From: Diplonema papillatum
Taxonomy: Eukaryota; Euglenozoa; Diplonemea; Diplonemida; Diplonemidae
Length of the DNA stretch: 64,000 nt
NCBI GenBank assembly: GCA_030068145.1
Contig: JAPJBO010000081.1
Coordinates: 124,001 to 188,000, forward strand
Direction: 5' to 3'
How positions within the stretch are numbered: position 1 is the stretch's first letter; every line of letters begins with the position of its first letter. Below, in pieces: positions 4,699 through 64,000 of this stretch. Under the pieces are notes generated by a model. That model was not told the DNA's origin, made no database searches, and saw only the letters and a program-made list of their open reading frames with translations. The position numbers and the translations under genes are program-made.

Positions 4699-5344
4699 AG
4701 GCTGGACCTCACCGTGTAGCTCCTTCCGTCGGAGGAGAGAGCGAGCAACAAATTGACGGGAGATGTGGGCCCCCCAGGTGGTGGGACCACTGGGCAGTCT
4801 TCGCTCCCGGAAACAGGGAAGCTCTGCGACTGGTTTCTCCACAGATTTGGCTATCGATTTGGAGCACAAAGCACACCCTAGTCATAACGAGTCCCACGAA
4901 CCTCAAATGGAAAGGAAATGATGGTCGTGTGAGCGTAAAACAACACCGTGAGGAAAAAGAGAAATGCAGACTAACGAGTACCAATACCAATTCTAAAAAG
5001 CAGAAAGAATTTCAACAACACCTTTAAATTGAAAGAATAATGAAAACCATTTGAACGAAGGTCACCCGGAGACTTTAAAACCCCGGATTCTCAAGCGAGC
5101 CTTCACTCTACAACAAGAAGTCAGACAAAATCGGTTGACCGAACAAAGTAAGCAACGAGTCGGGGGGGCTATGCCGCGGCTGCTATGCGGGGGTAGCCCG
5201 CCCCGAATGGATAAAGAGAATCAAAAAGAAACATCGGTCGCGAGTCCACAAACTGAACGTCCACGGCATTATTGCGGGCGCTCTCCCTCGTCCCAGTGTT
5301 AGTGTCGCCCCAAGTCTTCCTGGAAAAAGAGCTGCTTTACATTT
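4699..5344. other. Non-genic; one F-unit at 5045-5113
   Basis: Contains one clean F-unit (GAAGGTCACCCGGAGACTTT then CAAGCGAGCCTTCACTCTAC) at 5045-5113. A hairpin-like CCAGCTTCTGAGGCTGG lies at 4688-4704 and recurs at about 22689 and 57560. No gene is seen. Confidence 0.5.
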
Positions 5345-5427: not shown

Positions 5428-5620
5428 CAGGGCTTACGCTCCACGTGTGGAACGTGTGGATTTCCACAAGTTAATTCTTTTTGGATTTTGTTCCCCCACG
5501 TGTGGATCCACAGGTACCACATGTGGATTTTGATTTATTGGTCCACATGCAGGGGAGTCTAGGCCCACTAGCGGTCAAGGCCGCACAGCCAGGTGTCGCC
5601 GAGTCAGTAGCGACACTATT

Positions 5621-5757
5621 TTTTTCGTAGTAACAATTAATTGTAAACACGAAAGAGAACGCTGGCAGCGTGTTTGGGAGAAGTTTAGCCTACCGATCAT
5701 ATTCAGTCACTATCACTCACTAACAGGCTAATCCTCCCCCGGCACGTACAAACAAAA
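5621..5757 (+). repeat. YR element terminal repeat A1
   Basis: Runs from TTTTTCGTAGTAACAATTAA to GGCACGTACAAAC, directly before the ORF1 ATG. Nearly identical to A2 at 8789-8909. Contains the dyad AACGCTGGCAGCGT. Confidence 0.9.
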
Positions 5758-6756
5758 ATGGCACTTACTCGGACTGATATCCTCGAGGATGAGGTCAACT
5801 GGGGCACTGTGCCCGTTTGCAAGCTACCGCGCTGCGCGGAGTTTGACGACGGGGAGTTTGACTGCGTGTTCCCCTCGTGCATCATCGCGCACCGGCCGGA
5901 GCAGTCGACGAGGTGCGCCACCTGTGGGTTCCTAGCCTCTCCGTCCTGCCTGAGCAAGAAGTTAGGGGCGGATGCCGCCGGTTTCTCCGCGGGTATAAAG
6001 GACGACGACTGGTCATGCCCAGTCTGTTGCTGCCTGGCCCACAGGAACGACCGCGCAGCCTACCCGATTCTTGAGGAGGCGGTAGAGTTTCCCCCCTTCC
6101 GCCGACAAGACGACGAGGAAAGTGTGGGTGCGGATGCCGTCCAGGCGGTCCTGGACAAATTGCCCGAAGGACCCTGGCGGGAACCGTTCGCCCACCTCCT
6201 TTCCGGGCTGCACAGGCAGCTTGCCGTTACCCAGGGCCAACTCCGCAAGGTGGAATCCGACGCGGCCCTGGCCCAGAAGGAAGCCGAAGAAGCGGAGCAG
6301 GCCGAGGTCGACACTCGGCGGGTGTTGACGTGGAAGCCGTTGCTGAAGTCGCCGGCTGGACGCCTGGCCCTCCGTAACCACGTCCAGAGGCGTTACGGCG
6401 AGGCGGCGGAGGTGAACGAGCAACTCGCCGCTCACCGCCACGAGCTCCGCAGCACCTACGACGTGCTGTGGTCCTTGCTCCCCGAGGCCGTCCACCGTCC
6501 TGGGGTGATGCAGGCCATGCAGACAGCCGTGACCCGCATGGAATCGAACCGCCTGCGATTCAGGTCCGGCGGAACCCCCGAGGCTTCGGTCCTCTATGAG
6601 GCCCGCTCGCGCAAGACCAAATACCACGACATGGATGAGCGCTGGGCTATTAACTTGAACAACGCGCTTCTTCAAGTAAAGCCACAAAGCTCGCGGGAAG
6701 GAGCAAAAAAGGAAGTGGAGCGGGAGGGTCGTTCAAAGAGGACGAGAAGGGAGTGA
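5758..6756 (+). CDS. YR element ORF1, zinc-finger and coiled-coil protein
   Basis: 332 codons from ATG 5758, which directly follows the A1 repeat. Around residues 35-95 there is a cysteine-rich module (CVFPSC, then RCATCGF, PSCL and DDDWSCPVC) whose second half resembles a PHD/RING-type zinc finger (W-x-C-x2-C ending). It is followed by a charged Gln/Glu/Ala-rich coiled-coil-like region (about residues 160-200) and a basic tail (KRTRRE). In YR retrotransposons ORF1 occupies the gag position and is presumed to bind the element RNA; the PHD-like finger could instead bind chromatin and influence target choice, which is inference. The frame looks whole. GC-rich codon use matches the recombinase that follows. 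Confidence 0.8.
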   Translation: MALTRTDILEDEVNWGTVPVCKLPRCAEFDDGEFDCVFPSCIIAHRPEQSTRCATCGFLASPSCLSKKLGADAAGFSAGIKDDDWSCPVCCCLAHRNDRAAYPILEEAVEFPPFRRQDDEESVGADAVQAVLDKLPEGPWREPFAHLLSGLHRQLAVTQGQLRKVESDAALAQKEAEEAEQAEVDTRRVLTWKPLLKSPAGRLALRNHVQRRYGEAAEVNEQLAAHRHELRSTYDVLWSLLPEAVHRPGVMQAMQTAVTRMESNRLRFRSGGTPEASVLYEARSRKTKYHDMDERWAINLNNALLQVKPQSSREGAKKEVEREGRSKRTRRE

Positions 6757-6864
6757 CTAGGCTCACCTGCTCCGGTCTTCGAACGCCTCCCCCTCCCAGC
6801 TTCCAAGATCCGAAAATTAGATCGAGTCACCCCCAAGCAGGTCCCGGGCCTCCTACGGAGAGTG

Positions 6865-7692
6865 ATGGACAGGGCCTCGCTGTGTTATGCCAACACGGCT
6901 GCTCTGTCCAGTGTGCAAACCCGCAGCGATGCCTTCATCGCCCGGGTCAAGAGGAGCCACCCTCACCTGTCAGAAGACCTCGTCTTCCTGATGTGGCTCC
7001 AACTCAAGTTGGAACGGAAGGACATTGCTCCCGTGTCCGCCCGTCAGTATATGACGTACCGGAATATGCTGAAGGTCGATCCGGCGACCGCCTTCCGGAG
7101 GGCATTGGCCCGCGAACTAAAAGAGTTCGAACGGAGGGCCCAGGACTCCCGTGTCCTGGTCAACAACCAACAGGTGTGGGGGGCTATAGCAAAGATGACC
7201 GGTCTACACCGTGCTGCGCTGGCTACACAGTGGAGCCTTGGCGCCCGGTTCATCGACCTCATTCGGCTCAAGACCTCACAGGTCGTGGCCTGCCCCAAGG
7301 ACCCCCGTCTCATCCTAGTCGTCCTGGTGTACGGGAAGACGGACAGAAGCGGCAAGGGCCAGCCACTGTTGGTGGAGAGGGCGGGCCGATTCACCCATTG
7401 GATGTTGGAGTGGTGGAATCGGCGAGTGAAGTCGGGGAAGAAGTACATGTTCTACCCCGAGCTCCGGACAACACCCTACAACGAGGTGTTGACAGTTCAG
7501 CTGGGTCTGAAGTCCCACGGCATACGGCATTCGGCCCTTACCTGGGTGGCCCGGTTCGCGGACGACGGGGAGGATTCGGCACAAGTAGTGGGCCGTCACA
7601 AGCAGGTCGAGACGACTCGCCAATATATTCCTCACTACCTCTGGGGCAGTGCTCAGGGTTCTGTTGCTCCCCTCAAACTGCTCCAAAGGTGA
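6865..7692 (+). CDS. Tyrosine recombinase of the YR retrotransposon
   Basis: About 275 residues. The catalytic half carries the tyrosine-recombinase signature: a first arginine in SLGARFIDLIRL, the HGIRHS box (H-x-x-R), and GRHKQVETTRQYI with the late histidine and the nucleophilic tyrosine. This enzyme inserts a circular DNA copy of the element by strand exchange, which is why such elements lack an integrase and leave no target duplication. It lies between ORF1 and the reverse transcriptase. ATG 6865 is the first methionine in the frame; the open frame extends further upstream toward ORF1. The recombinase reading frame looks whole. Confidence 0.85.
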   Translation: MDRASLCYANTAALSSVQTRSDAFIARVKRSHPHLSEDLVFLMWLQLKLERKDIAPVSARQYMTYRNMLKVDPATAFRRALARELKEFERRAQDSRVLVNNQQVWGAIAKMTGLHRAALATQWSLGARFIDLIRLKTSQVVACPKDPRLILVVLVYGKTDRSGKGQPLLVERAGRFTHWMLEWWNRRVKSGKKYMFYPELRTTPYNEVLTVQLGLKSHGIRHSALTWVARFADDGEDSAQVVGRHKQVETTRQYIPHYLWGSAQGSVAPLKLLQR

Positions 7693-8731
7693 CCTGCCCG
7701 GTGCATCGGACAGCTGATTGTCCCGCAGAGGACGAAACAAGATCGGCTGAAGAGCCCTCAGTCGCGTGGCCTGTCACCTTGAAAGACTTCTCTGACCTCT
7801 ACGACTATGCCGAAACGTGGCTTAGTCAGGATCATGACTTACCGAAGCCGAAGACAGCCACATGCTACGAGGGCGTTGTAGCTCCGGCTGTGTGCTCCAC
7901 GGTCGAAGTCCTCAAGCTTGTATCTGACTTCCCGGGCCTCAGGACACATTTCGAGTGGGTGAAGGAAACGAAGATCCGAAGTCTCATAGGCTACACCCGA
8001 CCCTCCGCACCCGGTCCCCCAAACAGGAAGATGGCTCCACACGTGGCCCGCCTCCTGGAGCTCGGCATCGTTGAAAACGTTCGCAGAAACGATTCTGAGA
8101 GGTGGTGTCATTCCGCCTTCTGTGTTGAGAAGTCTAAGCAAGGTCAGCTCCGCTTCATTCTGGCTTGCACGGCCTTAAATGCCGCAACTTCCCATACCCC
8201 TTGCCCCCCCTGCGTGCTGCCCTCATACCCCTCGATGATCGAACGAATGATGGGCTTCCGCTATTTAGCTGAGTTCGACTTCAAGTCGTTCTTCTTCCAA
8301 TTCCCTTTGGACGAGGACGCCCGCCGGTTCTTCTGCCTACGGGTGGATAACAAGGTTTACCGTGTGAAGGTCCTGCCCATGGGATACCGTGGTGCTCCAC
8401 AGCTGGCCCAGGCAGTATCTGAGCTGATCGCAGAGCCCCTATCTATCTGAAGGAGCTGTACGCGTTGTACATGTTGGTCCGCGGCCACTCCCGTACTAAC
8501 ACTCTTTTGGTGGTCGGCGTGGATAATAAGGCTGTGATTGGAATCATCAGGAAGGGCTATTCCCTAAAGCCAGCAGCCATCCTATGGCTGAGGGCACTGC
8601 AGGACGCATTGAAAGAGCTTGACAATCACCTGGAAGTTTATTACATACCGACGGACCAAATGCCTGCTGACGCCTTCACCCGGTTATCTATTCAGCGGTC
8701 CTGTTGGAAAGAAGTCTGCGACACGTTGTAG
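7693..8731 (+). pseudogene. Reverse transcriptase and RNase H part of the YR element (fossil)
   Basis: Reverse-transcriptase motifs are recognisable: RFILACTALNAAT, then FRYLAEFDFKSFFFQF (palm motif A with its aspartate) and RVKVLPMGYRGAPQLAQAV (motif B). An RNase H-like region follows (LLVVGVDNKAVIGII near 8505 and VYYIPTDQMPADAFTRL near 8640), as in DIRS-order elements where RNase H is fused behind the polymerase. This part is broken, so the copy is not expected to move on its own. Confidence 0.82.
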
Positions 8732-8759
8732 GTGAAGGCCTCCAATAATACAAGGGGCC

Positions 8760-8790
8760 GGCACGTACAAACAAATACACGCCTATTCTT
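8760..8790 (+). repeat. YR element terminal repeat B1
   Basis: GGCACGTACAAACAAATACA followed by CGCCTATTC; repeated almost exactly as B2 at 8908-8940. B1 precedes A2, giving the B1-A2-B2 end. Confidence 0.85.
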
Positions 8791-8909
8791 TTTCGTAGTA
8801 ACAATTAATTGTAAACACGAAAGAGAACGCTGGCAGCGTGTTTGGGAGAAGATTAGCCTACCGATCATATTCACTCACTATCACTCACTAACAGGCTAAT
8901 CCTCCCCGG
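8789..8909 (+). repeat. YR element terminal repeat A2
   Basis: TTTTTCGTAGTAACAATTAA through CAGGCTAATCCTCCCC, matching A1 at 5621-5757 with only a few differences. Confidence 0.9.
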
Positions 8910-8940
8910 CACGTACAAACAAACACACGCCTATTCTTTT
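8908..8940 (+). repeat. YR element terminal repeat B2
   Basis: GGCACGTACAAACAAACACA followed by CGCCTATTC, the second copy of B1; the T tract after it belongs to the hAT-E target. Confidence 0.85.
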
Positions 8941-9048
8941 TTTGCCGTCGCACATGAGGGGAAAGGTTTTTTTTCCCCTCGAACCTTAAGCGCCCACACG
9001 TGGACCACACGTATTTTCTCTGAGACCGAAAACGGAGCGTAAGCCCTG

Positions 9049-9790: not shown

Positions 9791-9809
9791 AAACCAGCCC
9801 GTTTTTGAA

Positions 9810-10042
9810 TCAGCACCTGCTTTGTGGGAAAATACTTGAGGAGGCTGCCAGTTGCGAAATCTCACAGGAGGTAAATCTGCTGCAGACCGCAGAAAACACA
9901 GGCAATTCTGGGGTTTTGGTGCGTAAGCATTCAGACAGAAAGGTCCCATATTGCGTTGCATTGTTTTAACCCGGTTTCACATATTCTCCCTCCTGCTCCC
10001 TGTGTGGTTCCGTCGAAAAAAAGTCCTGGCACCGAGTATTTT
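9810..10042 (+). mobile_element. RepA copy, diverged
   Basis: AGCACCTGCTTTGTGGGAAA, ATACTTGAGGAGGCTGCCAG and AAACACAGGCAATTCTGG match the RepA left half. The right half has decayed, ending near CACCGAGTATTT. Confidence 0.75.
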
Positions 10043-22264: not shown

Positions 22265-22380
22265 GTAGAAAACTGGCCACTTTAAAGAGAACGCTGGCAG
22301 CGTGTTTGGGAGAAGATTGGCCTGAAGAGCAGGCGAATCCTCCCCCGGCACGTACAAACAAACACACGCCTATTCTTTTT
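22265..22380 (+). mobile_element. Stray YR-retrotransposon terminal repeat, partial
   Basis: AAAGAGAACGCTGGCAGCGT, GTTTGGGAGAAGATTGGCCT, GGCACGTACAAACAAACACA and CGCCTATTC match A and B of the element at 5621-8940. The 5' part and the repeated TCACTCACT segment are absent. An A23 run lies just upstream (near 22209-22231). Confidence 0.85.
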
Positions 22381-22497
22381 TATTGGGAAAAATACATTCC
22401 TCTGGTGGAAATGACTTACGGAGCGTGACGATAAATTTCGTTTATTTTTTGACAGGATTCCGATGTGTTCCACACGCACAGACAAATAAGCGAATTT

Positions 22498-63483: not shown

Positions 63484-63637
63484 TTCGTAATACCGGTAAC
63501 AATTAATTGTAAACACGAAAGAGAACGCTGGCAGCGTGTTTGGGAGAAGATTAGCCTACCGATCATATTCACTCACTATCACTCGCTAACAGGCTAATCC
63601 TCCCCCGGCACGTACAAACAAACATCGCGCCTATTAT
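63484..63637 (+). mobile_element. Solo YR-retrotransposon terminal repeat
   Basis: TTTTTCGTAATACCGGTAAC, AATTAATTGTAAACACGAAA, GAACGCTGGCAGCGTGTTTG, TCACTCACTATCACTCGCTA and GGCACGTACAAACAAACATC, then CGCCTATTATTTTT: a full A-B pair with no internal region, nearly as well preserved as the ends of 5621-8940. Confidence 0.9.
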
Positions 63638-64000
63638 TTTTCACATTTCTTTTCCTCCTCCTCGTAGCCTTCGACGCTCACATTACGTAGCAGAGCCGCC
63701 CACCCGAGGTGGCTCTTGCTCGCCCGTGCAAAAGCGTTTGGACCTTTCCTTCCCTCTTTTCCTTTTTCTTCCACCATCCCCGCGCTCAAATACGGCTGTA
63801 GGTCCCAGCTGTTACGAGTTACAAGCAGCCGCCTGGCAAACCTGACTCACCCCGCTGTTCTATCTGCAGACACTCAGGTCCCGCGCTGGTGATGTGTTCG
63901 TGGCTGCTACTGCCGTTTTTTAAAACCGAAGATTCAACAAGAATGATGAAAGCGATGGCATCAAAGAAATGCTCGCAACCAGGACAGCGCGGGGAGTTTG
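63638..64000 (+). repeat. RepR copy and spacer
   Basis: 63805-63925 (GTTACGAGTTACAAGCAGCC, CCGCTGTTCTATCTGCAGAC, ACTCAGGTCCCGCGCTGGTG) is RepR. The rest to the window end holds nothing recognised. Confidence 0.6.

Follow-up and report, generated by a model that had tools for sequence, protein, structure and literature searches.

A probable young, internally deleted tyrosine recombinase retrotransposon with a VIPER-like plan in the diplonemid Diplonema papillatum

Introduction

What kind of retrotransposon carries its tyrosine recombinase (YR) ahead of its reverse transcriptase (RT) and RNase H (RH) and is bounded by split direct repeats in a diplonemid genome is the question raised by a locus of Diplonema papillatum, a marine flagellate of the diplonemids, the sister group of kinetoplastids. 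The window analyzed here comprises 64,000 nucleotides (nt) of contig C81 (JAPJBO010000081.1, positions 124,001 to 188,000) of the 271-Mb genome, and the element in question extends within it from about 5626 to about 8943, slightly beyond the bounds of 5621..8940 given in an earlier sequence-only reading. Our analysis makes it probable that this element is a young, internally deleted YR retrotransposon with the plan of VIPER.

In the description by Ribeiro et al. (2019; PMC6681497), A1 stands at the 5' end and B1-A2-B2 at the 3' end in VIPER of T. cruzi and C. fasciculata and in TATE of L. braziliensis, such order and repeats being called VIPER-like in kinetoplastids, and a later paper (PMC12278014, 2025) repeats the A1 ... 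B1-A2-B2 description. In both accounts the published VIPER and TATE follow the same plan without target duplication. The sequence-only reading had regarded the combination of VIPER-like gene order and split repeats as unusual, a view that does not hold since PMC6681497 already gives it for VIPER and TATE. The same source describes the VIPER-like RNase H as closest to that of hepadnaviruses, which is not a formal criterion. VIPER was stated in 2013 to be known solely from kinetoplastida (PMC3783388). The D. papillatum genome paper (Valach et al., 2023; PMC10161547) mentions more than 60 open reading frames (ORFs) resembling DNA-transposon proteins 'including TATE', MULE and Helitron; its main text names neither VIPER nor DIRS, and a search of titles and abstract starts, with most subscription journals outside its range, found no literature on YR retrotransposons of diplonemids.

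Results

All features of the element lie on the forward strand. Repeat A1 (5626..5756) is preceded by a run of T (5619-5625) and ends in GGCACGTACAAACAAA directly 5' of the ATG of a Gag-like ORF1 (5758..6756; 332 aa from the ATG to a TGA stop), a part of the element that the sequence-only reading did not mention and whose product carries a Cys/His finger ending in W-x-C-P-x-C. The recombinase, ORF2 (6757..7692), shares the frame of Gag, from which it is parted by a single TGA, and contains the motifs GARFIDL, HGIRHS and GRHKQVETTRQYI in one open frame. The RT/RH region (7693..8731) follows in the -1 frame and lacks 622 nt between 8435 and 8436, including the W-I-D-N active-site box. At the 3' end, B1 (8760..8793) begins with GGCACGTACAAACAAA and ends with CTATTCTTTTT, A2 (8794..8923) shows 2 differences from A1 over the 112 nt compared, and B2 (8908..8943) has GGCACGTACAAACAAA in common with the end of A2 and terminates in the target T-run, so that GGCACGTACAAACAAA occurs at three places (A1 end, B1 start and A2/B2 overlap). 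Self-comparison of the window located the corresponding direct repeat pairs of 119 nt (5621-5739 and 8789-8907; 98% identity) and 36 nt (8758-8793 and 8906-8941; 97% identity), and a 26-nt core of A occurred four times in the window compared to 0.00 expected from 100 shuffles. Inverted terminal repeats, a DIRS feature, were not found at these ends, which are direct; the inverted matches are accounted for by a short palindrome inside A and the copy of it. Both the order Gag-like, YR, RT/RH and the split direct repeats A1 ... B1-A2-B2 are VIPER-like features, and the placement of recombinase motifs upstream of RT and RNase H, the arrangement of the ends and the overall identification as a YR retrotransposon, all put forward in the sequence-only reading, agree with the ORFs, the repeats and further copies.

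A nucleotide search of the genome gave 80 rows, with the best 40 of 2126 candidates scored, and among these were five other near-full-length copies on other contigs that matched positions 1-2814 or 1-2816 of the query at 97-100%. The window element differs from the sister copy L002 by 7 substitutions, one 1-nt indel and the 622-nt deletion at 8435/8436, with three further mismatches in the flank. The deletion takes out the active-site box of the RT together with the beginning of RNase H, and the window copy is therefore unable to supply a whole RT. The earlier description of a broken fossil is thus right about the breakage and wrong about the age; an ancient fossil is ruled out by the near-identity to L002, whose three frames are open. 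Among the five sister copies with frames read (L002-L006), all three ORFs were open in L002 only. The YR of the sister copy on C192 was 100% identical to D. papillatum DIPPA_20324 across 88% of its length.

A second family shares about 71% nucleotide identity with that of the window, and complete A1 ... B1-A2-B2 ends were present in the window copy, L002 and L003 as well as in the family-2 copies L009, L011 and L012. In three of the six family-2 loci read the three ORFs are open and separate; in a fourth, Gag and YR form a single frame of 640 aa. The order Gag, YR, RT/RH recurs in lineage II (L059, L060 and L061), with an RT identity of 38-41% to families 1 and 2 (lineage I), and in lineage III (L072 and L073), with an RT identity of 25-29% to families 1-5. 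The order is consequently general in this genome, being found in sister copies, the second family and two deeper lineages, and a rearrangement of one copy as its source is ruled out. Gag and YR are in one frame in L060 and L061, and in lineage III Gag, YR and RT/RH are each in a different frame. As for the repeats, A1 and A2 are present in L059, L060 and L061, and B2 was detected neither in these three nor in most of ten further short stretches (L059-L071 read), while L072 has both repeats in the order A1 ... B1-A2-B2 (A 138/138, B 97/98) and the 6 kb read of L073 showed no A/B repeats. The 3' end of lineage II is variable after A2: in L065 A2 continues into Gag, resembling a tandem joint, and L068 and L069 contain tandem B-A units. 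In L073 (about 4700-4947, reverse strand) the RT/RH frame runs on into Gag-like sequence, another possible tandem joint.

Lineage III was read from a PF00589 search of the genome, in which the best 150 of 1099 candidates were scored and three loci read (L072, L073 and L074); many of the 150 have 521- or 554-aa ORFs like those of lineage III. The third locus, L074 (G000:C956:13000-19000), encodes a 418-aa YR (PF00589, E 8.5e-14), perhaps Crypton-like, with no RT in the 6 kb read and a second YR-like ORF of 266 aa on the opposite strand.

The RT frame of the window copy is open from 6654, i.e. across the YR ORF, and such an overlap of YR and RT/RH frames is again VIPER-like. Codon constraint in the RT frame starts only near the YR stop, as mismatches between L002 and L009 cluster at third positions of the Gag/YR frame as far as the stop of YR and, beyond it, at those of the RT frame; no such clustering is seen in either frame near the Gag stop. 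A coding role of the RT frame throughout the YR ORF is hence unsupported, the constraint there following the YR frame. The terminal 150-nt windows of L002 and L009 are 96% and 98% identical, compared to 59-75% in the windows in between, and these near-identical ends of families 1 and 2 may reflect either strong cis constraint or exchange between families. In all four families of lineages I and II that were checked, Gag ends at TGA, and in lineage I the next codon is CTA or CTC. UGA-CUA is a readthrough context.

The RT of L002 matched PF00078 (E 1.5e-9), as did 9/9 members of the RT alignment, and a PDB search with the RT profile matched RTs of cauliflower mosaic virus (CaMV), Ty3, retroviruses and others. 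Alignment with the CaMV RT placed the WiDN box opposite YVDD. Where YxDD is expected, W[ILMV]DN was found in 12/12 RTs (10/10 in one alignment; WVDN in L072 and L073), eight of them from D. papillatum and all collected by similarity, hence not a random sample; literature text searches found no paper tying 'WIDN' to reverse transcriptase and none with the word YXDN. The RNase H residues D, E, D and D are conserved in the aligned members. PF00336, the hepadnavirus RNase H family, matched 1/7 RNase H domains (P0010, E 1.5e-7), which is not from this host, and a PF00336 search of the D. papillatum genome gave no match, its control likewise being without a match anywhere. P0010 is a EukProt protein related to the RT/RH, and its PF00336 match corresponds to the likeness reported for the VIPER-like RNase H. 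No Pfam methyltransferase domain was detected in the three ORFs of L002, where families without a Pfam model would escape, and Peptidase_A17 had no match among the RTs and RNase H domains scanned.

In the YR alignment, 3/3 sequences matched the PHROG integrase phrog_1 (best E 9.7e-9) and PF00589 (best E 1.4e-5); the YR of L072 matched PF00589 with E 2e-8. All families of lineages I and II (5/5) retain R, H-x-x-R, H and Y. Nothing relevant was matched in the PDB by the YR sequence, and AlphaFold2 (AF2) models had a mean pLDDT of 37 for YR and 47 for Gag. A Pfam scan of the Gag-like ORF1 matched no family. Its finger, C-x2-4-C-x3-H-x5-7-C-x2-C-x6-7-C ... W-x-C-P-x-C, which we read as PHD-like, is present in 5/5 Gags of lineages I and II and in 0/2 of lineage III, and the CX2CX4HX4C box is present in 0/7 Gags of lineages I-III.

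For the seven families, RT and YR give unrooted trees of one topology, {F1,F2}, {F4,(F3,F5)}, {F6,F7}, with supports of 99 (RT) and 69 (YR) for (F3,F5) and of 100 (RT) and 86 (YR) for lineage II. This agreement indicates that YR and RT stayed together within this host. Among proteins from other sources, P0011 groups with lineage III (support 100), and P0007, P0009 and P0010 are placed with low support (27-60). VIPER, TATE, Ngaro, PAT and DIRS sequences are not part of these trees, and the families were set against them by structure and published description only. Scans of viral and genome contigs with the RT and YR alignments gave no confirmed relative, and protein searches with RT and YR had no VIPER or TATE among the matches listed.

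The joined flanks of the window copy aligned across the junction, with 96-98% identity, to at least 40 uninterrupted places (41 rows, of which the final one is partial; best 40 of 1524 candidates scored). All eight empty sites read consist of ACACTA, 7-10 nt of T and GCCGTC, with one C inside the T-run in two, and the window copy thus sits in the T-run of a dispersed repeat. The insertion went into the T-run without other target duplication, a duplication hidden inside the T-run being possible. The flanks themselves (5520-5625 and 8944-9040) belong to a different dispersed repeat, at least 40 copies of which have no interruption.

AB units occur scattered across the genome. With A2+B2 as query, 41 of 46 rows covered nearly all of it at 97-100% (best 40 of 2103 candidates scored, a number of candidates only and not of AB units). 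Among 30 AB loci fetched, 28 had the exact core, four lay in full elements and 24 (23 places) were without an upstream B1. Among the latter, a tandem AB-AB on C375 has a common TTTTT, and TTTTT is conserved at the B1-A2 junction of the copies of families 1 and 2 inspected. The window itself contains further AB units apart from the element: a remnant of an AB unit of the unrelated lineage III element at 9802-9967 (135/164 aligned positions equal to L072; score 186 compared to a maximum of 33 in 200 shuffles), a unit without an element at 22284-22381, in which part of A is missing (91/97 positions equal to A2-B2), and a unit without an element at 63496-63641 with B of the family-2 type (141/144 positions equal).

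Discussion

The anatomy of the element, the coding constraint in the Gag/YR and then the RT frame, the T-runs of the empty sites, the solo and tandem AB units and the near-identical copies can be read directly from the DNA, and a transposition cycle can be proposed on this basis. An intact copy would be transcribed across the whole element; Gag would be translated, followed by YR, probably via UGA readthrough, and by RT/RH from the -1 frame. The RNA would then be copied to DNA, the paired A and B repeats serving to restore a closed circle with a predicted B-A junction of TTCTTTTT-CGTAG, giving a predicted circular-DNA junction sequence of TTCTTTTTCGTAG. Finally, recombination by the YR would join the circle, at its TTTTT core, to a chromosomal T-run, leaving the element between two T-runs without other target duplication.

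Several points weigh against this reading of the element and its cycle. Transcription, the circle, readthrough, YR catalysis and the order of events are steps that we infer from sequence alone. In L059 (lineage II) and L072 (lineage III) YR lies in a different frame from Gag, so that readthrough cannot be general. The RT activity is putative and unproven, since Asn replaces the second catalytic Asp of the box. The YR of the window's own family alone scores weakly (phrog_1, E 0.0011; PF00589, E 0.006, below the curated cut-off), and PF00589 was found at E <= 1 in just 3/5 YRs of lineages I and II. Likewise, the joined flanks of L002 revealed no empty site and half matches only, the solo units L040, L054 and L055 have just T3-T4 at the left, and the left end of the solo unit L043 is altered.

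Other origins of the YR-first order have to be considered. The diplonemid lineage might have reached this order independently and not from a VIPER/TATE ancestor, the likeness being structural only. Structural homoplasy is described as common in YR elements (PMC4157794), no kinetoplastid relative appeared among the RT or YR matches listed, the Gag finger is unlike the VIPER box, and PF00336 was not found in this genome by the search whose control likewise failed to match. However, the host comes from the sister group of kinetoplastids and YR lies upstream of RT in all three deep lineages, and we consider an independent origin possible, if doubtful. Still far less probable is a Ngaro-like element whose YR moved upstream of RT. 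The split direct repeats do follow the Ngaro plan, and Ngaro elements are present in other protists (PMC8547959), but in the Cafeteria Ngaros of that report ORF2 encodes RT/RH and ORF3 YR, and YR precedes RT in 7/7 families read here; together with the single topology of the RT and YR trees, this indicates that the order is old in this host. A juxtaposition of an unrelated recombinase gene and a retroelement by chance or assembly is hardly credible: PMC10161547 warns of artificially duplicated or collapsed repeats and stand-alone YR genes such as L074 occur here, yet the five near-full-length copies on other contigs contradict it and the order recurs in diverged families.

Assignment of the element to the VIPER-like kind is one of structure (order, repeats, frames and no target duplication), and descent from a VIPER/TATE ancestor is putative. 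VIPER-type elements have so far been described, in the literature found, from kinetoplastids only; the gene order and end repeats were already published for VIPER, and what is new is the description of such elements in a diplonemid. Their presence there suggests that the VIPER-type plan may already have existed in the ancestor common to diplonemids and kinetoplastids. More tentatively, the at least three deep YR-first lineages and their few relatives might constitute a group of their own, apart from VIPER and TATE of kinetoplastids, marked by the W[ILMV]DN box of the RT, with Asn for the second Asp, and, for lineages I and II, by the PHD-like Gag finger. Provided that the enzyme is active, this box is a natural test case for the extent to which the second Asp of YxDD tolerates replacement. 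Moreover, with its near-identical copies, numerous empty sites and AB units and a simple T-run as target, D. papillatum is a host in which the circle-and-recombinase model for split-repeat elements can be tested directly.

Among known systems, DIRS and PAT are also YR retrotransposons, PAT with split direct repeats, but both encode a putative methyltransferase domain and the repeats of DIRS are inverted (PMC4157794); here the ends are direct repeats, and no Pfam methyltransferase match was detected in the sequences scanned. Ngaro elements share the split direct repeats A1-[ORFs]-B1A2B2 and the solo AB repeats, whereas the YR ORF follows RT/RH in the Cafeteria Ngaros (PMC8547959) and comes first (6757-7692) in the window element. 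TATE of trypanosomatids agrees in ORF order and, in the case of L. braziliensis, in the order of the repeats as well; its ORF3 matches Peptidase_A17, in contrast to the RTs and RNase H domains scanned here. VIPER of trypanosomatids differs in its host and in the CX2CX4HX4C box of some of its Gags, but agrees in the order Gag-like, YR, RT/RH, in the overlap of YR and RT/RH frames, in the A1 ... B1-A2-B2 repeats and in the lack of target duplication, and its A2-B2 short form in T. cruzi, SIRE, corresponds to the solo AB units of D. papillatum.

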